From positions 1-64,000 of the forward strand of contig NZ_WRPR01000013.1 of NCBI RefSeq assembly GCF_010367455.1: a DNA stretch of 64,000 nt. Direction: 5' to 3'. Positions 25,735 to 64,000 of this stretch are shown here, one piece after another (position 1 is the first letter of the stretch; each line of letters begins with the position of its first letter). Under the pieces are notes generated by a model. That model saw only the letters and a program-made list of their open reading frames with translations, ran no database searches and was not told the DNA's origin. Origin of the DNA: Candidatus Laterigemmans baculatus. GTDB taxonomy: Bacteria; Planctomycetota; Planctomycetia; Pirellulales; Pirellulaceae. The position numbers were made by a program, and so were the translations under genes.

Positions 25735-25994
25735 TTCAGCACCAATGGTTAGTCGGTTCGATCCGAGTTCAACGCGGTGACGCCCCCCAGCTCCCGCGAT
25801 CACGTCGCGAAGCGGCCAACCTTCGGCCAACCTTCTTCGACTAACCAGGCATATCGACGCCCACTCCTCCAGTCCTTGCTCAAAAGCCGGAAAAATCCGA
25901 AAAATCCTCAAAACCGCTACAACCGGCAAAGTCGGCTGTGGCTTGCCCCCGAGGTTTAGCTGTCTCGGCCACTGAGCCGTAGGCGCTAGCCTCT

Positions 25995-26165
25995 GTCAGA
26001 AAACCGCTCTTCCCCATTACCCTCCCCCCGGGAGGGTCGGGCTCTCAGGCCCGGGGAGGGCCAGCTGAATCCGTTCGCGTTGAGGCCTCTACGTCGCGGA
26101 TCGCCCTCCCCGCTCGTTCCTCGCGACCCTCCCGGGGGGAGGGTGTCGGCTCAGGGTTTTCTGAC
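25995..26165. mobile_element. MITE-like element, copy 1 (171 bp)
   Basis: Bounded by GTCAGAAAACC (25995-26005) and its inverse GGTTTTCTGAC (26155-26165); the inverted ends extend outward with a few mismatches as CTAGCCTC. Inside, each half carries a CCCTCCCCCCGGGAGGG-type palindrome. The whole sequence matches 59908-60076 in reverse orientation at nearly every position. It encodes no protein. Confidence 0.8.
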
Positions 26166-26171
26166 GGAGCC

Positions 26172-26403
26172 TAGCCCCCATTCTCGAAAATGCCGGGAAA
26201 ACCGGACGCTAGCCCGGATTATTCATGCGTCTGGGTAGATGTGTCGCAAGTTCTTGTGGCGTTGGAAGTTGCGACAGACCATGACAGAACAGTGTGTTAA
26301 ATCAGCCGCCACGCGCTAGCGTCCGGTTTTTGCGGAGTTTTCGAGAACCGGGGGCTAGCGCCCGGCGGCTGATGAATAATCCGGGCTAGCGCGTGGCGGC
26401 CGG
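26172..26403. repeat. Composite of inverted 71 bp palindromic elements
   Basis: 26302-26372 is a 71 bp imperfect palindrome (TCAGCCGCC...GGCGGCTGA) also found at 63637-63707. Around it lie a 19 bp perfect inverted repeat (26208-26226 and 26372-26390, core CCGGATTATTCAT) and an inverted partial copy (26181-26213). The right edge runs into the 3' end of nadB and provides its stop codon. Together with the MITE this fills the 651 bp gene-free interval 25735-26385. Confidence 0.8.
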
Positions 26404-52420: not shown

Positions 52421-53328
52421 CCGCGTTCCTCCGCCGACGAATAGAATCGGCAGTCAGCCGCTCTTGAGTATAGGTAACCTGAAAAGGAAACGAAGCCAAG
52501 CGTCCGGCTCCAGAGGCTAGGCTGACTTCCACCCGAAAGGGCGATGACGGTCCGTAGTGGCGGCTATGCTGCCATTGCTAGCCATCGCTGGCGGGAGGTC
52601 GGCCGCTCGCGGCGGCAGCCATCCCAGGAAAATGTCGAAAATTTAGTCGTTGGCACTGAAAATTTTTCCTCCGCGAGGCACTAACCGCAGCCCCTCGTCG
52701 AGTATCACTCGAAATTCACCGTCCGCGGCCCCGCACCCCCAACGCTATCGAAGCTAATTCGGGGGGTTCGAGTCTCCACGTCCTCTAACGGGGGTCAGAG
52801 CCCTTCTCGTGCAACGGCTCAATCGAGGGTGCGTGCCGAAACCCATGGCCCTCCCCGGGCCTCAGCGACCGACCCTCTCGCAAGCGGGAGGAAGATGTTT
52901 TGAGGTGCCGTTTCTACTTCGGGCGATCGTTTCCTCCGGGCTTTTCACCATCCCTGTGCACGGCTCTCCGAGCTTTGTCTTTTGGGGGGGGCGAGCGAAA
53001 AAAGCAACTTTCGCGGCGGCAATTTCTTAGGGAGATCGCCTGCAATCTCCCCGCAATCGGAAATTTTTACCGCCAGTCACTTTTCTCTCATTGGCCTCTG
53101 CCTATAAAGCCTCGGGCACCCGTGATCGTCTCGCGGGTGGGCTGCTCTTGCTCCGTGCCGAGTGTCGGGCCGCAAGCTCATTCCCTGGTTGGGGAGGGGT
53201 CGTGCGGCACCCACGCAAGGGGCCGATCGAGAGCCGGCTTGGGCGGAGTATCCGCCGCAGCGATTCGCTAGAACCGCGATTGTCCGCCTTGTCTGTGTGA
53301 TTGCTGCAGCTTGTTTGATCGCTACAGC
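52421..53328. other. Gene-free interval before the YTV gene
   Basis: No supported gene. The only clear features are a lone TGACCCC-type repeat at 52790-52805 and the promoter just after 53,328. Short ORFs at 52,809-53,300 have no protein-like character. Confidence 0.55.
52790..52805 (-). repeat. Solo copy of the TGACCCC repeat unit
   Basis: GGGGGTCAGAGCCCTT here is the reverse complement of the AAGGGCTCTGACCCC form that fills 12.6-15.2 kb, showing that the unit also occurs singly and elsewhere in the genome. Confidence 0.75.
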
Positions 53329-53356
53329 TTGACAGGGGAGGGGGCGGGCTTACATT
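53329..53356 (+). promoter_or_regulatory. Sigma70-type promoter for the YTV gene
   Basis: TTGACA at 53329-53334 matches the -35 consensus fully and TACATT at 53351-53356 matches four of six -10 positions, 16 bp apart. It would leave an untranslated leader of about 95 bp before the ATG at 53458. Confidence 0.6.
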
Positions 53357-53457
53357 GCGGGCGGGGCTGTCCAGGCCAAATCACGCAGCCACTGTCACTC
53401 CTTGGTTTTTCTTCTGTTGCCTCACAGGCTGTGAGACGTTCGTGGAGGGTTTACTGC

Positions 53458-55524
53458 ATGAGACATCAACTATTGAAGTACGCTTTGGGACTGGGGGCGG
53501 TGGCGGTCACCGCCCTGCCGGCCCTGGCTGGCCACGGCCATCATCGCGGCGGCGGTTGTGCCGGCTGCGGTAATGGCGGAACGCTGCTCAGCAGCGGAGC
53601 GATGGTCGCGGGAACTGCTTGCGGCGACTGTGGCACCGCGGTCAGCGGTGTCGCCGAACAGACGCGGACGGTGTACGTGCCCCAGTACGTGACCGAAAAG
53701 CGGCTGGTCACGAGCACCGAGTATCGCAACGAACAGCGGACTCGCACCCGCACCATTCAGAAACGGGTCCCGCGGACCGAGAGCCGCACCCAGACCTACA
53801 CGGTCAACGTTCCTCAGACGCAGACCCGGACCGAAAACTACCAGGTCCGCGTCGCCGTCCCCTACACCGAAGAAGTTCCCTACACGGTGCAGGTTCCGGT
53901 CACCCGCCAGGTCGAGCAGACCTATGCGGTCCGCGTGCCGGTGACTCGCCAGGTCGAGCAGGCCTACACGGTCAACGTGCCGTACACCGAGCAGGTCGAG
54001 CAGACCTACACGGTTAACGTGCCGTACACCGAGCAGGTCGAGCAGACCTACACCGTGCAGGTGCCGGTGACCGAGCAGGTCGAGCAGTCCTATCAGGTGT
54101 GCGTGCCGTACACCGAGCAGGTCGAGCAGACCTACCAGGTGTGCGTTCCCTATACGGAAACGCAGACCCAGAGCTATGCGGTCCGCGTCCCCTACACCGA
54201 GACGCTGACGCAGAACTACACCGTGATGGTGCCGTACACCGAGCAGGTCGAGCAGCCCTACTCGGTCCAGGTTCCTTACACCGAGCAGGTCGAGCAGACC
54301 TACACGGTGCAGGTTCCCTACACCGAGCAGGTGACGGAGACCTACACGGTGATGGTTCCCCAGACCGAAACCCGGTCGGCGATGCGGACCGTCTGCAAAG
54401 TGGTTCCGGTGACCACGATGAAGAGCGTCACCTGCGATCAAGGGCACTATGAAACTCAGCTGATCAATGTCGGCGGCGGTTGCAGTGACTGCGGCGGCGC
54501 GGCGGTCAGCAGCGGCTGTGGAAGCTGCGGAGGCGGTTCGGTCGGCTGCGGTGATTGCGGCGGAGTGGCCGTCGGCAGCGGCTGCGGCAGCTGCGGCGGG
54601 GCCTCGCTCGGCGACGCCTGCGGACGCACGATCGCCCGTCGAGTCTATGTCAGCAATCCGGTCACGACCGAAGTTCCGGTCACGACCTACCAGCGGCAAA
54701 TGGTTCAGGAGCCCTACGAGTACACCGTGACGACCTGCCGTCCCGAGACTCGGGAGCGAACCGTCAACGTGACCAAGTACCGAAGCGAAACGCGGACCCG
54801 GACGGTGAACGTCACCAAGTACCGGACCGAACAGCGGACGCGAACCTACGCGGTTACCAAGTGCCGTCCTGAGCAGCGGACCCGGGAATATCAAGTGACC
54901 CGTTGCCGCGTCGAGACGCAGACCCGCGAAGTTCCGGTCACGCGGATGCGGTACGAAACCCGCACCCGCACCGTGCCGGTCACGCGGACCCGCTACGAAA
55001 CCCGCACTCGCACCGTTCCGGTCACTCGCCTGACCACCGAACAGCGGACGCGGACCGTGGCCGTCCAGCGGTGCCGTCAGGAACAGCGGACTCGCACCGT
55101 GCCGGTCACCCGTTACCGGACCGAACAGCGGACCCGCATGGTTTCGGTGTGCGAGATGACGACCCAGAACCGTACGCGTACGGTGAACGTCACCAGCTAC
55201 GTCACTGAGACTCGGACTCGCACCGTGCAGCGGTGCCGCTACGAAACGCAGCAGCGCTCGCGGGACGTGACCTACACCGTGATGGTTCCGCAAACCCGCA
55301 CGCGGACCTACGACGTGACGGTTTACGACACCGTTCCGGAAGAAGTCACCGAGACCTACACCGTGTGCGTGCCTCACCAGGTGCAACGCGAAGTGGACGT
55401 CACCGTGTGCCGCCGCGTTCCCCAAACCGTGACCGTTCCGGTCTGCGGCGGGAATGTGATGAGCAATGGCGTCGTGCTCGGCTCGGGCATCCAGGTCGGC
55501 AGCGGTTGCGTTAACTGCCAGTAA
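53458..55524 (+). CDS. YTV-repeat surface protein with acidic and basic 14-residue repeats
   Basis: 688 residues from ATG 53458 (GGAGGG nine bases upstream) with a signal peptide (MRHQLLKYALGLGAVAVTAL). The first block holds about a dozen tandem 14-residue units near VPYTEQVEQTYTVQ; a Cys/Gly-rich insert (GCGSCGGGSVGCGDCGG) follows; a second block has about a dozen 14-residue units near TVPVTRYRTEQRTR. Known in planctomycetes as the YTV repeat, function unclear. The blocks are oppositely charged. A terminator follows at 55584. Confidence 0.92.
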   Translation: MRHQLLKYALGLGAVAVTALPALAGHGHHRGGGCAGCGNGGTLLSSGAMVAGTACGDCGTAVSGVAEQTRTVYVPQYVTEKRLVTSTEYRNEQRTRTRTIQKRVPRTESRTQTYTVNVPQTQTRTENYQVRVAVPYTEEVPYTVQVPVTRQVEQTYAVRVPVTRQVEQAYTVNVPYTEQVEQTYTVNVPYTEQVEQTYTVQVPVTEQVEQSYQVCVPYTEQVEQTYQVCVPYTETQTQSYAVRVPYTETLTQNYTVMVPYTEQVEQPYSVQVPYTEQVEQTYTVQVPYTEQVTETYTVMVPQTETRSAMRTVCKVVPVTTMKSVTCDQGHYETQLINVGGGCSDCGGAAVSSGCGSCGGGSVGCGDCGGVAVGSGCGSCGGASLGDACGRTIARRVYVSNPVTTEVPVTTYQRQMVQEPYEYTVTTCRPETRERTVNVTKYRSETRTRTVNVTKYRTEQRTRTYAVTKCRPEQRTREYQVTRCRVETQTREVPVTRMRYETRTRTVPVTRTRYETRTRTVPVTRLTTEQRTRTVAVQRCRQEQRTRTVPVTRYRTEQRTRMVSVCEMTTQNRTRTVNVTSYVTETRTRTVQRCRYETQQRSRDVTYTVMVPQTRTRTYDVTVYDTVPEEVTETYTVCVPHQVQREVDVTVCRRVPQTVTVPVCGGNVMSNGVVLGSGIQVGSGCVNCQ

Positions 55525-57103: not shown

Positions 57104-57186
57104 GGAGGGTATCCGAATTGGTGAGGAGGCTGATTCGAAATCAGTTGCCCCGCAAGGGGTTGTGGGTTCGAGTCCCATGCCCTCCG
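57104..57186 (+). tRNA. tRNA-Ser (anticodon CGA)
   Basis: Acceptor GGAGGGT pairs with GCCCTCC, D-arm TCC/GGA, anticodon stem with loop TTCGAAA (anticodon CGA), long variable arm CCCCGCAAGGGG typical of class II tRNAs, and T-arm GTGGGTTCGAGTCCCAT. CCA is not encoded. It reads UCG. Confidence 0.93.
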
Positions 57187-57198
57187 CTCGTCAGATTA

Positions 57199-57229
57199 AG
57201 CCACCAGCGTCCGCGCTGGTGGCTTTTTT
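57199..57229 (+). terminator. Intrinsic terminator of tRNA-Ser
   Basis: AGCCACCAGCG and CGCTGGTGGCT form an 11 bp stem followed by a T run. Confidence 0.92.
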
Positions 57230-57318
57230 AATGCGCCTCGCGCTCCGCCCGCGCCCCTGCGCGTTCACGCGTGGGTGCCGACGACCACACCGGGTGGGGT
57301 GACGGCGTAGGGTGAAAG

Positions 57319-57416
57319 CGGAAGTGCATGGGAATCGAACCCACCTGCGGGGTCATTGAAACCCTCGCACGACGGCTTTGAAGACCGCGGCCGCCACCAG
57401 GCAAGCAAGCACTTCC
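57319..57416 (-). tRNA. selC: Selenocysteine tRNA (selC), anticodon TCA
   Basis: About 98 bases on the minus strand. An eight-pair acceptor (GGAAGTGC with GCACTTCC), anticodon loop CTTCAAA with TCA, a very long variable arm (GCGAGGGT ... ACCCCGC) and T-arm GTGGGTTCGATTCCCAT are the hallmarks of bacterial tRNA-Sec. It follows selD by 27 bp on the same strand. CCA is not encoded. It would be charged with Ser and converted by SelA. Confidence 0.93.
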
Positions 57417-57443
57417 AAAGAGGCAACTGTAGCATGGATCGGC

Positions 57444-59837
57444 TCAGCCCGTGTCGATCCCCGCAGCGTTGCGACGAGTCCCCGCAGCGTCGCGTTTGGC
57501 CGATGCCGCCCAGCGAATCCGCCTACTTGGCGCACCGCTTGGCTCACCGCTCGCTTCAACGCGGCCGATGACCGCCGGCGAGAGACCTGCTTGCCGCAAG
57601 CCGCCGAGGACGGAAGAGAGCTGGGCCTCGGCGACTCCCATCAGCAAGCCTCCCGAGGTTTGCGGGTCGAACATCGCCCGGTAGCGTCCCGCCCATTCCG
57701 CTGGCACTTCGTCGGGCAACATTCCGGCAGCCGCAGCGCGATTCGCCTCGGCCAGCGTGCTCTCGATTCCGGCTCGCAAGGCCGCTTCGGCGCCCGGGAG
57801 TAGCGGGAGGGCTGTCAAGTCGAGCTCGGCGGTCAGAGGCGAAGGGGCCGAGTCGCGGGAACTGTCGAGCATTTCCAGCAAATGCCCGAGCAAGCCGAAG
57901 CCGGTGACATCGGTGACCGCCGCGAGTCCCGCCTCGATCGCCACCGCGGCAGCGGCCTGATTGCTCGCGAGCATCGACGCGAGCAAGCTCTGCAGATCGG
58001 GCCCGCGGCACTTCGCCTGGCGATGAGCCGCGAGCAGGACTCCGCTCCCCAACGGTTTGCTGAGCACCAAGTGGTCGCCCGCAGCGAGTCCGGCTTTGAG
58101 CGGCATCGGGCTCCCGGTACTTTTCGCGCCGCGTTCTGTCGGCCGCTCGCCGCGCCTCCCAAGTCGCTCGCCGAGCAACGTAAAGCCAAACACGCCCTGC
58201 TCTCCTTCGATCGAGTGCCCGCCGACGATCGGCACGCCGAGGGGACGGAATTCGGCGAGGCTACCGGCAAGCCACTCGAAGAGGAGTTGTTCCTGCTGGG
58301 CGGCGGGACCGGGGGGCACGATCGCATGTGCCAGTGCGGCCGTGGGGACCGTACCCTTGGCGAACAGGTCGCTGAGCGCGTTGAGTGCGGCGACTCGACC
58401 GACCACGAAGGGGTCATCGAGAAAAGCGGCAAAAAAATCGGTCGTCGCGACGACCGAAGCCCCGCCCGTCCAATCGATCTCCGCCACATCCTCAGCCTGC
58501 TCGAGCCCCAGCTTGATCCGCGGCGAGCTCGGGTTGTCGAGCCGGGCAAGGACGCGGCGGAGCGTCGTCGACGCCAGTTTGCCCCCACACCCGGCACACC
58601 GCATCGGAGCTTCCCGCTCGGCACGCTGCTCGGCACCGCGAACCGCTGCCATCGCGTCGAGCGAGTAGTCTTGATGCTTTGCCATGAACCGCCGGTCGAT
58701 ACGATCTTTCAACCACCAGCACCAGCGACCCTCGGCGGACCAGCCCCGGTAATCGAGCACGGCTCGTCCGTCTCCGGTGTTCAGCAGCGACAAAAAATTC
58801 CGCTGTGGCTTCCACTTGCGGAGCGGCTCTCCATGGAGCGAACGCTGGAGGTTCTCCCACAGCACCGGCCCTTGGCGGACCGCGTACACGCCTGCCTTGG
58901 GAGTCGGGCGTGACGGGCAGGTTCCCGAATCGCCGACGACGAAGATCGAGCTGCTCCCGAGGCTCCGCAAGGACTCGTCGACGAGCAGGAAGCCGGCGTC
59001 ATCCTTGGGCAGTTCGAAGCTCGCAAAGAGTTCCGGCCCGACCGCACCGACGGCCCAGATCACTACATCCGCAGCCAGATGTTGCGAGCCCTCCTGCGGA
59101 TGCTCGACGACGACGCTCTCGGAGGTGAGCTGTCGGACTTCGCAATGCATCAGCCGGCGGTGGCCGCGCTCCTCCAGCACCCGCTCGGCGCGGCGAACCG
59201 CTGACGGTGAAGCCCCCGAGAGCAGCTGCGCGCCCCGATCGACCAGCGTGAGCTCGAGCGTTGCAGCGGGAAAGTGCTGGGCGATAAACGCCGGCAAGCA
59301 GAAAGCGATTTCCACGCCCCCAGCCCCCCCGCCAGCGACGACGGCGCGCAGCGGCCGACCCGCTTCAGGCGACCGGCCGGCATCTACGGGCCGACGCTTC
59401 TCGAGGGCTGCCTGCACGCGCGCTCGCAGCCGCGGCAAAAACGTCTGCATCGGTTTGATCGACAAGGCATGTTCGAGCCCTGAAACCGCCGCCGGACGCG
59501 ACCCAATCCCGATCGACAGCCGGTCGTAGGGGAGCGGTGGCCGATCGGCAAAATGCAGCTGCTGGTTCCGTAGATCGAGCCCCACGCACTCGGCCAGCAG
59601 CAAGCGGGCTCCGACCGCCTGGCATCGGCGGACCAGATCGACTTGCATCTGCTCCACTGGGTACTGGCCAGCCAGCGTTCCCGGAACCATTCCCGAGTAG
59701 GCCGCTTGCCAACGGTTTGAAATGCAGGTCAAACGGACTCCCGGCAGCGGTCGCATCTTCCACATCCGCAGGAGGTGCAGGTGGGTATGCCCGCCGCCGA
59801 GGAGCACGAGTTCACGATTCGGCAGGGTCTGGATCAT
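57444..59837 (-). CDS. selD: FAD-dependent oxidoreductase-selenophosphate synthetase fusion
   Basis: 797 residues. The N-terminal half (about 1-400) is an NDH-2-like pyridine nucleotide-disulfide oxidoreductase (LVLLGGGHTHLHLLRMW, VVAGGGAGGVEIA, IWAVGAVGPELF, SIFVVGDSGTC). The C-terminal half is SelD: CAGCGGKLAS with Cys417 and Lys420 (the E. coli Cys17 and Lys20 positions; Cys19 is Gly), AALNALSDLFAKGTVP, GGHSIEG and VTDVTGFGLLGH. It makes selenophosphate from selenide and ATP. This fusion is known in other bacteria. Followed by selC. Confidence 0.93.
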   Translation of the reverse strand: MIQTLPNRELVLLGGGHTHLHLLRMWKMRPLPGVRLTCISNRWQAAYSGMVPGTLAGQYPVEQMQVDLVRRCQAVGARLLLAECVGLDLRNQQLHFADRPPLPYDRLSIGIGSRPAAVSGLEHALSIKPMQTFLPRLRARVQAALEKRRPVDAGRSPEAGRPLRAVVAGGGAGGVEIAFCLPAFIAQHFPAATLELTLVDRGAQLLSGASPSAVRRAERVLEERGHRRLMHCEVRQLTSESVVVEHPQEGSQHLAADVVIWAVGAVGPELFASFELPKDDAGFLLVDESLRSLGSSSIFVVGDSGTCPSRPTPKAGVYAVRQGPVLWENLQRSLHGEPLRKWKPQRNFLSLLNTGDGRAVLDYRGWSAEGRWCWWLKDRIDRRFMAKHQDYSLDAMAAVRGAEQRAEREAPMRCAGCGGKLASTTLRRVLARLDNPSSPRIKLGLEQAEDVAEIDWTGGASVVATTDFFAAFLDDPFVVGRVAALNALSDLFAKGTVPTAALAHAIVPPGPAAQQEQLLFEWLAGSLAEFRPLGVPIVGGHSIEGEQGVFGFTLLGERLGRRGERPTERGAKSTGSPMPLKAGLAAGDHLVLSKPLGSGVLLAAHRQAKCRGPDLQSLLASMLASNQAAAAVAIEAGLAAVTDVTGFGLLGHLLEMLDSSRDSAPSPLTAELDLTALPLLPGAEAALRAGIESTLAEANRAAAAGMLPDEVPAEWAGRYRAMFDPQTSGGLLMGVAEAQLSSVLGGLRQAGLSPAVIGRVEASGEPSGAPSRRIRWAASAKRDAAGTRRNAAGIDTG

Positions 59838-59907
59838 GGTGCTGGCCTCGGCTCTACGATAGCGTGGGCTCCAAGGATGACGCGACTGGTCCGCAGGCTA
59901 AGGCTCT

Positions 59908-60076
59908 GTCAGAAAACCCAGCTGACACCCTCCCCCCGGGAGGGTCGCGAGGAACGAGCGGGGAGGGCGATCCGCGGCGTAGAGGCCGAAGCGCGAACGG
60001 ATTCAGCTGGCCCTCCCCGGGCCTGAGAGCCCGACCCTCCCGGGGGGAGGGTGATGGGGAACAGCGGTTTTCTGAC
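59908..60076. mobile_element. MITE-like element, copy 2 (169 bp, inverted)
   Basis: Ends GTCAGAAAACC (59908-59918) and GGTTTTCTGAC (60066-60076) with the same GGGAGGG palindromes inside. Reverse complement matches 25995-26165 almost base for base. It sits in the divergent spacer between selD and selB. Confidence 0.82.
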
Positions 60077-60145
60077 CGAGGCTAGCGCCTACGGCTCATG
60101 AACGCGGCTGCGAGGCCCGAGGCTAGCACCTACGGCTCATGAACG
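60077..60145 (+). repeat. Two copies of GAGGCTAGCGCCTACGGCTC
   Basis: GAGGCTAGCGCCTACGGCTC at about 60,078 and again at about 60,120 (GCACC variant), each followed by ATGAACGCGGC. The same palindromic segment occurs at 19,404 and, inverted, at about 25,975. Confidence 0.75.
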
Positions 60146-60169
60146 CGGCAGAGGGAAAGGTGAATGGGG

Positions 60170-62194
60170 ATGACGAGGCATTTGATCCTGGGAACGGCTG
60201 GCCATATCGATCATGGCAAAACCGAACTGGTCAAAGCGCTGACCGGAACCGATGCCGATCGCTTGCCCGACGAAAAGCGACGGGGAATGACCATCGATCT
60301 GGGATTCGCCGAGTTGCGGCTCGGCGATCTGCAGCTGGGAATCGTCGACGTTCCGGGGCACGAGCGACTCGTCCGCAACATGCTCTGCGGAGCGATGGCG
60401 ATCGACTTGGCTCTGCTCGTCGTTGCCGCCAATGAATCGGTGAAGCCACAGACCCGTGAACATCTCGAGATTCTCAAGCACCTGGGGATCGAGCACGGCG
60501 TGATCGTGCTGAGCAAGTGCGATCTCGTCGAACCGCATTGGCTGGATTGCGTCGCGGAGGAAGTTCGCTCCCTGGTCGCGGACAGCCCACTGGCTCAGGC
60601 CCGAGCGGTCGGCGTCAGCAGTCTCACGGGCCAAGGGCTGCCGGAACTGCGGGCGGCTTTGGCCGAGGCCGCCGAGCACGCCGCCCGCTCGCCGCGACGC
60701 CAACAGCTGCAAGCGCCTTTCCGGATGGCGATCGACCGGGCGTTCACCGTCGAGGGGCACGGCACGATCGTCACCGGCAGCGTCGCCAGCGGGCTGCTGC
60801 GAGTGGGCGAGGAAGTCGCCCTCGAGCCGCAGGGAACCGCCGTCCGCGTGCGGGGACTCCAGTCCCACGGGGTGGCCGTGGACCGTGTCGCTCGGGGCCA
60901 GCGGGCGGCGATCAATCTAGTCGGAGTTTCGCTCGAGGAGGCCCATCGAGGCGACGTGTTGGCCCCGCCCGGTTACCTCACCCCGAGCTGCCGATTGCAC
61001 GTCGCCCTCTCCCTCAACCGCCCCCCGATGCGGCACGCTTCCGCCAGCGACCCGCCGCCTCGCAACCCGCGCCGCAAAATTTCCGTGCGGGTCCACCTGG
61101 GGACCAAGGAAATTCAGGCCACGCTCCGCTGGCTCGAGCCGCGGGGGGATGATTTTGACCAGGACGGAAGTGTGCTGCTGGCGGAGCTGGAGTTGAGCGA
61201 GCCGGCAGTCTGCGTGTGGGGGCAGCCGGTGGTCGTGCGGAGTCAGGCGCCGGTCGCGACGCTCGGCGGCGGACGCGTCGTCGATCCGCATCCCCGCCCG
61301 CTGCGGCGGAGAGCGACGGAGGAGGTTTCCGCGATTCGAGAGCTGGCATCCGAGTCGCCACGGGCTCGGCTCGCCTCGCTCTATTTCCTCAGGGGCTTCG
61401 GCGAATTGGGCGCCGCCGAGGTGGTCCGTCGCGGAGGAATCCTCGGGGAGTGGGAATCGCTCCGCGATTCGCTGGTCGCAGAGCGGGTGCTCGAGAGGCT
61501 GCCGCTGGCACCGGGACGCCTCCTGCACGTGCATGCCCAGGTCTTGGAGAGAGCAATGACACGGGTCGAGCAACTGCTGGCCAAATACCACCAGCGGAAT
61601 CGCACCCAAGCGGTCTTCCCGCTGTCGGTGCTACACAAGATTTTCAGCGGGAGCGAGTCCCCGCGGCACACGGCCCAGTGGCTCGCCGCGGTGGTCGAGC
61701 GGATGCGGAGCCAAGGGCGGTTGACGGTGACGCCCGCCGGGGTGGCGCTGCCGGGGGCCGGACCGCAACTCTCCAAGCCGCAGCAGCAGTTGTACGAGGA
61801 GATCATCGAGACGCATCGCCGCTGCGGATGTGCTCCGCCAGCGATCGACCAGCTCGCCCCGACCGCGGCCACCCGTCGCTCGGTCGTCCCGAAGCTGGTC
61901 GAGCTGGCGATTGCCCAGGGGCATCTCGTCCGCGTTTGCTCGGCGTGGTGCCTGCACGCGGAAGTCGAAGGCGAGGTCCGGCGGACGCTTGTCGAACGAC
62001 TCGGCGAAAGTTCGTTTGCGGTCCGCGATCTGCGCGAACTGCTGCACGTTTCACGCAAGTATCTGGTCCCGCTCTGCGAGTATCTCGATCGGATCGGCTT
62101 TACCCGGCGGGAGGGCGATCGGCGGACGATCGTCGGCTCCGGAGGTGGAATCGAGAGCCAGCCCGATCGCCTGCCCGAGGAGGTGAGCTCGTGA
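60170..62194 (+). CDS. selB: Selenocysteine-specific elongation factor SelB
   Basis: 674 residues. The GTPase domain starts HLILGTAGHIDHGKTELVK (P-loop) with DVPGHERLVRNML and LSKCDLV; domains II and III follow, and the long C-terminus carries the winged-helix repeats that bind the SECIS hairpin in mRNA. ATG 60170 has AGGGAAAGG nine bases upstream; ATG 60164 is too close to it. The end overlaps selA by four bases. Confidence 0.94.
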   Translation: MTRHLILGTAGHIDHGKTELVKALTGTDADRLPDEKRRGMTIDLGFAELRLGDLQLGIVDVPGHERLVRNMLCGAMAIDLALLVVAANESVKPQTREHLEILKHLGIEHGVIVLSKCDLVEPHWLDCVAEEVRSLVADSPLAQARAVGVSSLTGQGLPELRAALAEAAEHAARSPRRQQLQAPFRMAIDRAFTVEGHGTIVTGSVASGLLRVGEEVALEPQGTAVRVRGLQSHGVAVDRVARGQRAAINLVGVSLEEAHRGDVLAPPGYLTPSCRLHVALSLNRPPMRHASASDPPPRNPRRKISVRVHLGTKEIQATLRWLEPRGDDFDQDGSVLLAELELSEPAVCVWGQPVVVRSQAPVATLGGGRVVDPHPRPLRRRATEEVSAIRELASESPRARLASLYFLRGFGELGAAEVVRRGGILGEWESLRDSLVAERVLERLPLAPGRLLHVHAQVLERAMTRVEQLLAKYHQRNRTQAVFPLSVLHKIFSGSESPRHTAQWLAAVVERMRSQGRLTVTPAGVALPGAGPQLSKPQQQLYEEIIETHRRCGCAPPAIDQLAPTAATRRSVVPKLVELAIAQGHLVRVCSAWCLHAEVEGEVRRTLVERLGESSFAVRDLRELLHVSRKYLVPLCEYLDRIGFTRREGDRRTIVGSGGGIESQPDRLPEEVSS

Positions 62195-63654
62195 ACGAGC
62201 CGCATGCGGTGGTGCGTCGCTTACCGAGTGTCAGCCGAGCCATCGATAGCGAAGCCTTTGCACCGCTGGTCGATCGCTACGGCCGGCCGGCGGTGATCGA
62301 CGAGTTGCGGAAGGTGTTGGCCGAGCACCGCGAGCGGTTGCTCACAGCCAGCCACTCGCTCGATTCACGCCCCGGTCCGGCGGCGAATGGGAACGCTCCC
62401 GCCGCAAGCGTTCGCGAGTTGGGGCTAGGTGCGTTGAGCGAGCAAGTGCAGCAGCGGTTGGATCGGCGGCGGCGCTCTCGCAGCCTCCGCCCGGTGATCA
62501 ACGGCACGGGGATTCTGCTGCACACTGGGCTCGGCCGCGCTCCGCTGGCTCGGGAAGCGATCGACGCGATTGCGGCCGTGGCCGCTGGATATGCAAGCGT
62601 GGAGCTCGATCTGGAGAGCGGCCAGCGGGGGCGGCGAGCGCGAGCGGTCGATGAGCTCCTGTGCGAGCTGACCGGCGCCGAAGCAGCGGTGGTCGTCAAC
62701 AATAACGCGGCGGCGACGGTGCTGAGCTTGGCGGCGCTGGCCGCGGGACGCGAAGTCATCGTCTCCCGCGGCGAGTTGATTGAGATCGGAGGCCAGTTTC
62801 GGCTGCCCGAAATCATGGCCGCCAGCGGAGCGGTGCTGCGCGAAGTCGGGAGTACGAACAAAACGCGGATCGACGACTATGCCCAGGCGATCGGTGAAGC
62901 GACCGGAGCGTTGCTGCTGGTCCACCCGAGCAACTACGTGGTGGTCGGATTCACCGAACACGTCTCGCTCGACGAACTGGTCCGGTTGGGGCGCAGCCGC
63001 GGCGTGCCGGTGATCCACGACATTGGTTCGGGGGCGTTGGTCGACTTCGCCCAGTTCGGATTCCGAGATGAGCCGCTGGCCGAGCGAAGTATCGCCGCGG
63101 GAGCCGACGTGGTGCTGTTCAGCGGCGATAAGCTGCTCGGCGGACCGCAGGCGGGAATCATCCTTGGTGGGCGGGCGGCGATCGAACGGATCGAACGCCA
63201 TCCGTTGGCCCGGGCGATGCGAGTCGACAAGCTGACGCTGGCCGCGCTGGCCGCGACGCTCGAGTTGTACCGCGATCCGCAGCGGACGAGCGGCACCGTT
63301 CCGCTGCTCCGGCTGCTCGCGACTCCTGCCGCGGAACTGCGGACGCGGGCCGAGCGGCTCGTCGCGGCGCTGACGGCGCTGCCCGCGTTCGCCGAAAGTT
63401 TTGCGGAGCCGGAAGTGCTCCCCGGACATGGCTATTTAGGGGGCGGCGCGGTTCCCACCCAACAGCAAGCGTCGTGGTGCGTGGCGCTCTCCCCGCGATC
63501 CATTGGCCTCGACGAGTTCGCCCGCCGCTTGCGCGCCGCGCGGCCAGCGATCGTCGGCCGGGTGCACGACCAGCGCTGGTGGCTCGACCTGCGGACGGTG
63601 TTTCCTGAGCAGGATGCGGAGGTCGTGGGGGTCCTATCAGCCGCCACGCGCTAG
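62191..63654 (+). CDS. selA: L-seryl-tRNA(Sec) selenium transferase SelA
   Basis: 487 residues, PLP enzyme that turns Ser-tRNA(Sec) into Sec-tRNA(Sec) with selenophosphate. INGTGILLHTGLGRAPL, GYASVELDLESGQRG, AVVVNNNAAAT, PVIHDIGSGALVD and FSGDKLLGGPQ (PLP Lys314) are the SelA signature. GTG start overlaps the selB stop (GTGA). The last codons (SAATR) and stop lie inside a 71 bp repeat element. Confidence 0.95.
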   Translation: MNEPHAVVRRLPSVSRAIDSEAFAPLVDRYGRPAVIDELRKVLAEHRERLLTASHSLDSRPGPAANGNAPAASVRELGLGALSEQVQQRLDRRRRSRSLRPVINGTGILLHTGLGRAPLAREAIDAIAAVAAGYASVELDLESGQRGRRARAVDELLCELTGAEAAVVVNNNAAATVLSLAALAAGREVIVSRGELIEIGGQFRLPEIMAASGAVLREVGSTNKTRIDDYAQAIGEATGALLLVHPSNYVVVGFTEHVSLDELVRLGRSRGVPVIHDIGSGALVDFAQFGFRDEPLAERSIAAGADVVLFSGDKLLGGPQAGIILGGRAAIERIERHPLARAMRVDKLTLAALAATLELYRDPQRTSGTVPLLRLLATPAAELRTRAERLVAALTALPAFAESFAEPEVLPGHGYLGGGAVPTQQQASWCVALSPRSIGLDEFARRLRAARPAIVGRVHDQRWWLDLRTVFPEQDAEVVGVLSAATR

Positions 63655-63707
63655 CGTCCGGTTTTCATGGCGTTAGCGGGAACCGGGGGCTCGCGCTCGG
63701 CGGCTGA
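63637..63707. repeat. 71 bp palindromic element overlapping the selA end
   Basis: Same length as 26302-26372 and identical over the first 29 bases (TCAGCCGCCACGCGCTAGCG...). The arms TCAGCCGCC and GGCGGCTGA are inverted. It contains the selA stop codon. Confidence 0.85.
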
Positions 63708-63815
63708 TGCAATACCCGAGAAGGGCGCGGGGCGTCCGAGCGTCCTCTCCCGCAGACCGGCCCGGGGTTTGCACGCGCCCTCGGCGGACCCGTCCCGACT
63801 CAGGAGCTCCGACCG

Positions 63816-64000
63816 ATGTCCGCTTCCAAACCTTCGGCCAAAACTTCCACACGCCAACCGCAGCCGTTTAGCCCCCAATCGCTCGCCAAGGGCTCCCGGC
63901 TCCAAGGAGCCTCGCTGACCCACAGCGTCTGTCCCTATTGTGCCGTCGGATGTGGGCTGAATATCTACAGCAAGCGGGGCGAAGTGATCGACGTCGAGGG
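63816..64000 (+). CDS. Formate dehydrogenase-type molybdopterin subunit, N-terminus only
   Basis: 62 residues from ATG 63816 (AGGAG upstream) to the window edge. CPYCAVGCGLNIYSK is the 4Fe-4S ligand motif C-x2-C-x3-C of the formate dehydrogenase/nitrate reductase family; the fourth Cys is beyond the edge, as is the Sec or Cys active site. Position next to selB-selA makes it the likely selenoprotein. Confidence 0.82.
   Translation, partial: MSASKPSAKTSTRQPQPFSPQSLAKGSRLQGASLTHSVCPYCAVGCGLNIYSKRGEVIDVE

Follow-up and report, generated by a model that had tools for sequence, protein, structure and literature searches.

The window analysed here (G000:C43:1-64000) covers 64,000 bases of a contig of 125,885 bases and ends in a cluster of selenocysteine (Sec) genes followed by the start of a formate dehydrogenase (FDH) gene. 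This raises the question of whether the cluster is a complete Sec-decoding locus together with the gene that it serves, and whether the two share an origin. According to a published survey (PMC1794560), all Sec users known at the time possessed FdhA or a Sec-containing SelD, and lateral gain of Sec is accompanied by co-transfer of the sel genes along with a gene for a selenoprotein, in most cases fdhA. Planctomycetes are already known to carry sel genes and selenoproteins, among them an fdhA that was moved laterally and lies apart from the sel genes (PMC4807772); a search of the open-licence literature turned up no report of an operon combining sel genes with fdhA in a planctomycete. Our reading, which we hold at a probability of roughly 0.9 from sequence comparison, is that of a complete Sec-decoding locus joined to a substrate gene, in which the sel core is of planctomycete descent and the fdh genes are probably separate arrivals. 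The Sec-FDH locus is real and complete, and it is probably working.

Organization of the locus

The features of the locus are listed in Table 1. ARAGORN, Rfam, and the Pfam and TIGR profiles placed tRNA-Sec, a selD fusion, selB, selA and the start of an FDH gene where the first-pass annotation had read a compact Sec locus, and the serine tRNA that it had described as converging on selC was likewise recovered. The tRNA-Sec matched RF01852 from 57320 to 57416 with 66.4 bits (cut-off 47), and its fold had a z score of –3.23 relative to shuffles. SelB scored 340.9 bits with TIGR00475 (cut-off 242.25), and SelA scored 463.6 bits with Pfam SelA and 538.6 bits with TIGR00474; all four members of the bacterial Sec-decoding set (SelA, SelB, SelD and tRNA-Sec) were thus present and over their cut-offs.

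Table 1. Features of the Sec-FDH locus, in contig coordinates
Feature	Position	Strand	Basis and remarks
tRNA-Ser(CGA)	57104-57187	+	ARAGORN; Rfam tRNA 38.6 bits; converges on selC; outside the Sec system
Terminator-like hairpin (12 pairs, then a T run) behind tRNA-Ser	57198-57225	+	Terminator scan
selC, tRNA-Sec (UCA anticodon)	57318-57416	–	ARAGORN; Rfam RF01852
selD fusion (oxidoreductase + selenophosphate synthetase, Cys type)	57444-59837	–	Pfam, TIGR profiles
MITE-like palindrome present in many copies, between the divergent selD and selB	about 59901-60083	not assigned	Genome copies
selB, Sec-specific elongation factor, C-terminal winged helix	60164-62194	+	Pfam, TIGR00475
selA, L-seryl-tRNA(Sec) selenium transferase	62191-63654	+	Pfam SelA, TIGR00474
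fdhA, Sec formate dehydrogenase alpha subunit	63816-67238 (C43; window holds 63816-64000)	+	NF041513, TIGR01553
SECIS hairpin of fdhA	64350-64394	+	Alignment and covariation
fdhB	67235-68080 (past window edge)		Follows fdhA
nrfD	68085-69203 (past window edge)		Follows fdhB
fdhD	69200-70084 (past window edge)		Follows nrfD

Because selC starts 27 bases past the selD stop codon, these two genes are probably co-transcribed. On the other arm, selB and selA meet at a GTGA junction, in which the GTG start codon of selA overlaps the selB stop codon. A scan restricted to sigma-70-type promoters found none between 57000 and 60400. Four terminator-like sites were detected in the same region, compared with 2.5 ± 1.9 in shuffled sequences; the placement of the hairpin behind the tRNA-Ser fits a terminator, for which the number of sites argues weakly. 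Upstream of the locus, a long repetitive ORF (53311-55524, + strand) contains many YTVxVPYTEQVEQ and RTRTVPVTR units.

The spacer between the divergent selD and selB genes holds a repeat whose ends are inverted (59901-59947 and 60032-60083). A second copy lies in the window at 25973-26176, and the genome contains at least 41 long copies (172 bits or more; 40 of 524 first-look candidates scored). With terminal inverted repeats and many copies, this multi-copy palindromic element agrees with the miniature inverted-repeat transposable element (MITE) that had been proposed for the spacer, and by present evidence it is a bystander.

The SelD fusion

The protein encoded by the selD gene contains Pyr_redox_2, AIRS and AIRS_C domains (Pfam) and exceeded the cut-offs of both TIGR03169 (350.8 versus 310 bits) and TIGR00476 for selD (233.3 versus 125 bits). 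Its active site, CGGK, fits the CxxK pattern, so that it is of the Cys type and counts as SelD proper; the label fusion_not_SelD (TIGR04369) was rejected, with a score of 399.7 against a cut-off of 700. As described in PMC4561486, NADH dehydrogenase-like/SelD fusions are the commonest SelD fusions, with the partner domain at the N-terminus and Cys in SelD. The window protein has the domain order of these TIGR03169 + TIGR00476 fusions and is likewise of the Cys type, and we found no feature that distinguishes it from them.

We found matches to this SelD in 28 of 38 named genomes, comprising 13 full-length fusions (the present one included), 2 cases of the oxidoreductase half alone and 13 stand-alone SelD proteins. 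Cys occupied the CxxK position in all 13 fusions, and 10 of the 13 stand-alone proteins had an in-frame TGA at a UAGK or UACK site; the UxxK motif of SelD is given in a table of PMC13188914. No match to TIGR03167 (selenouridine synthase) was found in the present genome at E ≤ 0.001, and Sec is therefore the only use that we found for its selenophosphate. The two genomes G594 and G647 (L235, L236) carry a stand-alone homologue of the oxidoreductase half and have no SelA match; this homologue is perhaps a remnant left after loss of Sec. In another genome, G742, there are four SelD-like matches (contigs C80, C97, C21 and C1), each carrying an in-frame TGA.

The Sec codon of fdhA and its SECIS hairpin

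The FDH gene was followed past the window edge, where its frame contains a single in-frame TGA (codon 179, U179; 64350-64352) when that codon is read as a residue. It lies in the active-site motif QARI-U-HS, in which U is followed by H as expected for the family, and the frame stays open for 961 codons beyond it. Of the 22 other FDH rows, 18 have U at the aligned position and 4 have C. FdhA scored 1444.9 with NF041513 (cut-off 1400) and 1026.9 with TIGR01553 (cut-off 814.2).

To the 45 bases starting at the TGA we aligned those of other genes, giving a gap-free alignment of 22 FDH genes that included E. coli fdnG and fdhF. T17 was invariant, and G23 and T24 were almost so. A stem of five pairs was paired in 93.0% of 100 cells (20 distinct rows), compared with 67.5 ± 3.4% in shuffles, and its covariation score was 0.582, compared with 0.119 ± 0.040; neither value was reached in any of 500 shuffles. 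Cells changed on both sides numbered 22 (7.3 ± 1.8 in shuffles), and sliding the stem to other registers left 35–51% of the cells paired. Three of the five pairs changed on both sides, a count equalled in 329 of 500 shuffles, and the 8 further pair types were equalled in 28 of 500. The window sequence by itself, in which one of the four apical pairs is G-U, folded no better than shuffles (z from –0.26 to 0.98), and the support for the hairpin is that of the alignment, whose columns also encode protein. As in bacterial SECIS elements, the hairpin lies just 3' of the UGA and shows compensatory change across homologues.

A SECIS model found the fdhA site with E = 1.8e-11, and the next match in the genome had E = 0.265 (150 of 4359 first-look candidates scored); this model was built from FDH rows including the fdhA site itself and would miss other SECIS types. 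The window row shares T17 and GGTCT at columns 22–26 with E. coli fdhF, in whose SECIS element the bases contacted by SelB are U17, G23 and U24. In the alignment, the fdhF row lacks the four apical pairs, and the window stem is accordingly of the fdnG type; the fdhF hairpin pairs one register off.

These results bear out the suggestion of the first-pass annotation that the dehydrogenase is a Sec enzyme, for which it had called for an in-frame TGA with a SECIS hairpin and no Cys codon at the active site. One could instead suppose that the TGA is a plain stop codon or an error and FdhA a broken gene, and there is indeed another gene of this genome (C139:12541-12840, see below) in which a TGA stands at the position of a Trp. 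However, the fdhA codon occupies the active-site position, the hairpin behind it is conserved with covariation, the frame remains open and the sel operon is adjacent, and we regard a broken gene as highly improbable. The active-site TGA, the covarying SECIS and the open frame ruled out a Cys or pseudogene reading of fdhA.

The fdh operon and the proposed decoding pathway

With ATGA overlaps at the fdhA/fdhB and nrfD/fdhD junctions, fdhA-fdhB-nrfD-fdhD is a tight operon. FdhA has a low-complexity loop at about residues 330–415 (L004:1806-2070), and residues 312–440 span 129 amino acids, compared with 38–78 in the 22 other proteins; we judged this loop to be a variable linker. A simple scan found no twin-arginine motif before the Fe-S cysteines of the window FdhA, compared with 15 of the 22 other rows (in rows L199 and L218, the position examined was not the right one). 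Given this absence, a cytoplasmic active site is likely.

A pathway can be proposed from these genes. As in the established pathway, the tRNA-Sec is charged with serine, which SelA would convert into Sec using selenophosphate from the SelD portion of the fusion protein. SelB would then deliver the Sec-tRNA to the fdhA UGA at the SECIS hairpin. FdhA, FdhB and NrfD would form a membrane-anchored formate dehydrogenase, with a topology that we infer to be probably cytoplasm-facing, and FdhD would help to mature FdhA, in which Sec would ligate molybdenum or tungsten. The electrons of formate would presumably pass towards the quinone pool.

Origin of the sel genes

It had been proposed that Sec use is uncommon in planctomycetes and that the block may have been transferred. 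Of 392 genomes sampled from the phylum, 275 had a tRNA-Sec match that reached the Rfam cut-off, as did 5 of 14 control genomes; a looser tally of 390 genomes was uninformative because 13 of the 14 controls matched at that level. In the own class, 7 of 40 genomes (the present one included) had a best tRNA-Sec match with E < 1e-10, and in the own family 2 of 9 had one, and therefore the trait is patchy nearby. The proposed rarity thus fails for the phylum, although the patchiness nearby speaks in its favour. SelA-like matches (E ≤ 1e-20) were found in 236 of 397 genomes of a separate class sample, a count that includes paralogues, and the weaker matches are probably such paralogues.

Among the 20 selA regions of relatives (the 21 best SelA matches minus G533), selB adjoins selA in 13, and the exact layout selC-selD <-> selB-selA occurs in 3 (G686, G537 and G534, all of family f102). 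These three islands are identical in order to the window's sel genes, including the fused selD, whereas their genomes lack an FDH match (E ≤ 1e-40). In a SelB tree of 49 rows, the window protein fell within a starred planctomycete clade of 19 rows, 4 of which are second copies of one gene; in a SelA tree of 82 rows, it fell within starred planctomycete clades of 27 and 37 rows. Sel islands of plasmids branched elsewhere. The trees were made by a quick method with SH-aLRT support only, and the SelA tree took 81 of 133 collected loci rows, omitting duplicates and, for thinning, most odd-numbered named loci. The genome-contig loci are a sample of a set of at least 80.

The positions of SelA and SelB, together with the layout shared by three order-mates, argue that the sel core did not come from outside the phylum. 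Judged by these comparisons it looks native, descending from planctomycete ancestors, and the two trees ruled out a sel block from another phylum. A joint acquisition of sel and FDH genes from another phylum, in the manner of plasmid-borne Sec-FDH islands, would have precedents: of the six plasmid-collection records in the clade of the window FDH, three carry the FDH together with a complete sel set, and co-transfer is the pattern reported for Proteobacteria (PMC1794560). However, SelB and SelA lie in planctomycete clades away from those islands, albeit in quick trees, the SelD fusion is closer to those of four order-mates (48–49% identity) than to that of Indioceanicola (41.6%), and the three order-mates with the shared layout lack the FDH. 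We consider such a joint acquisition quite improbable. The transfer proposed in the first-pass annotation is thus unsupported for the whole block as an import from outside the phylum, a foreign origin being plausible for the fdh genes alone.

The sel block could also have moved, without FDH, within the order from an f102-like lineage. The shared layout is consistent with this, a concatenated SelA+SelB+SelD tree joined the window to f102 (88/99, not starred), SelB alone gave 95/94 for the same grouping, and a grouping of the window with three rows of its own family, specified once the SelB tree was in view, was rejected (p-AU 0.001). However, the concatenated tree has just 9 rows and a long window branch (0.88), SelD alone gave 63/27, SelA alone lacked the grouping, and retention of an old layout accounts for the synteny equally well. 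A transfer within the order is therefore hinted at by these trees, and we regard it as possible but doubtful.

Origin of the fdh genes

At E ≤ 1e-40, the FDH was found in 1 of 50 named genomes, the present one, and in none of 49 relatives chosen within its family, order and class, of which 40 have a SelA-like match (not every first-look candidate was scored per genome). At E ≤ 1e-60, with two candidates scored per genome, it was found in 15 of 392 genomes of the phylum, the present one included and two being distant. Within the stretches of 8.6–19.9 kb analysed around each of 12 further FDH loci, there was no sel gene or tRNA-Sec.

In an FDH tree of 23 rows, from which a more distant FDH (L096) was omitted, the window protein belonged to a 100/100 clade with those of Thermomicrobium, Chelatococcus (Cys), Indioceanicola, Nonomuraea (Cys), Arthrobacter, Tsukamurella and two planctomycetes. 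The three plasmid-collection records of this clade with a complete sel set beside the FDH were those of Arthrobacter (conjugative), Tsukamurella and Indioceanicola. These islands have FDHs of the same clade as the window and the same fdhA-fdhB-nrfD order, and the selABC + fdhA islands of Proteobacteria, as described in PMC1794560, resemble the present locus in that the full Sec machinery directly adjoins a Sec FDH. In contrast to these proteobacterial and plasmid islands, the window sel genes are planctomycete-type and ordered selC-selD <-> selB-selA, with a repeat between the arms; selD is fused in the window and in Indioceanicola but not in the Arthrobacter and Tsukamurella islands. The planctomycete P1, according to PMC4807772, likewise has a Sec fdhA with signs of lateral transfer, although that gene lies away from the sel genes in an operon with nuoEF, whereas the window fdhA follows selA in an operon with fdhB-nrfD-fdhD.

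Base composition was compared with 53 non-overlapping contig ORFs of 200 amino acids or more, which are not annotated genes. Only 2 of the 53 had a GC content lower than fdhA (0.605), and none was lower than fdhB (0.563). The corresponding numbers were 52 for selA, 45 for selB, 44 for selD, 40 for nrfD (GC3 0.753) and 38 for fdhD. Thus, the composition check suggested in the first-pass annotation ranked fdhA and fdhB at the low-GC end of the contig, next to the GC-rich selA, selB and selD. The fit of codon usage to the contig was at the 38th percentile for fdhA, which is not odd, and at the 13th for fdhB.

This ordinary codon usage of fdhA, and the frequency of Sec gene losses (PMC1794560), speak for an FDH that was ancestral in the order and was lost from all sampled relatives. 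However, the 49 relatives lack a match, a single clade of all planctomycete FDH rows was rejected (p-AU 1.8e-46), as was a grouping of the window with G178 and G149, the two planctomycetes of the 100/100 clade (p-AU 3.9e-4), and the low GC contents of fdhA and fdhB also argue against ancestry, which we consider unlikely. Considering the absence in relatives, the phylum-mixing FDH tree and the low GC content of fdhA and fdhB with ordinary codon usage, the best reading is that the fdh genes were gained separately and not very recently; they probably arrived apart from the sel core, and fdhA seems to have entered a cell in which Sec was already decoded.

A more specific form of this separate gain, to which we give even odds, is a modular graft in which a Sec-FDH operon of the plasmid-linked clade joined an old planctomycete sel island, its SECIS hairpin being read by a SelB of another lineage. 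If so, fdhA came by itself to a host already able to decode Sec, a departure from the published pattern in which sel genes and fdhA travel together; taken with the order-mates that retain sel genes and a Cys SelD and had no TGA-containing FDH or FmdB match in our searches, this would mean that other selenoproteins keep the Sec trait in the order while fdhA comes and goes. With this locus, planctomycetes gain a further, compact Sec-FDH operon, and the notion of Sec as a rarity in the phylum is corrected. It also provides a clear-cut setting in which to ask whether a Sec enzyme can enter a new host unaccompanied by its own decoding machinery.

Other selenoprotein candidates

Our selenoprotein searches of the present genome covered a few families, and we do not claim fdhA as its sole selenoprotein. 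With PF00384, we found fdhA and one molybdenum enzyme without TGA (C123; FdhF/YdeP family, TIGR01701 695.8 bits), and PF10262 (Rdx) had no match in this genome. With PF00578, 18 matches were found, of which one weak match contained a TGA (L278, C139:12541-12840, – strand; thioredoxin-like, HF-TGA-GVWCAPC). This TGA falls where the thioredoxin-like family has Trp; it is therefore unlikely to be a Sec site, and reflects either a nonsense mutation or a mistake in the assembly. A read-through scan of C43 (1-122900) and the regions of 20 relatives, with a filter that discards a short ORF where a longer one overlaps it, gave fdhA as the only candidate in the contig.

The three genomes with the shared sel layout, and also G567, have sel genes and a Cys SelD fusion, yet they had no TGA-containing PF00384 match (FDH or FmdB) and no FDH of the present type. 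Weak PF00384 matches with the motif LUHGPTEIAAQLGG at an in-frame TGA occurred in three other genomes (L281, G353:C34; L282, G498:C80; L283, G506:C322). They probably encode a Sec-containing subunit B of formylmethanofuran dehydrogenase, a protein already reported from one planctomycete, and at the G353 site, the one of the three that was searched, the SECIS model gave E = 0.022. A short CxxU protein is encoded about 2–3 kb before selB in the relatives G742 (L149:4014) and G353 (L150:4853), with matches in L080, L155 and L160; by its motif, we take it to belong to the SelW/Rdx family.
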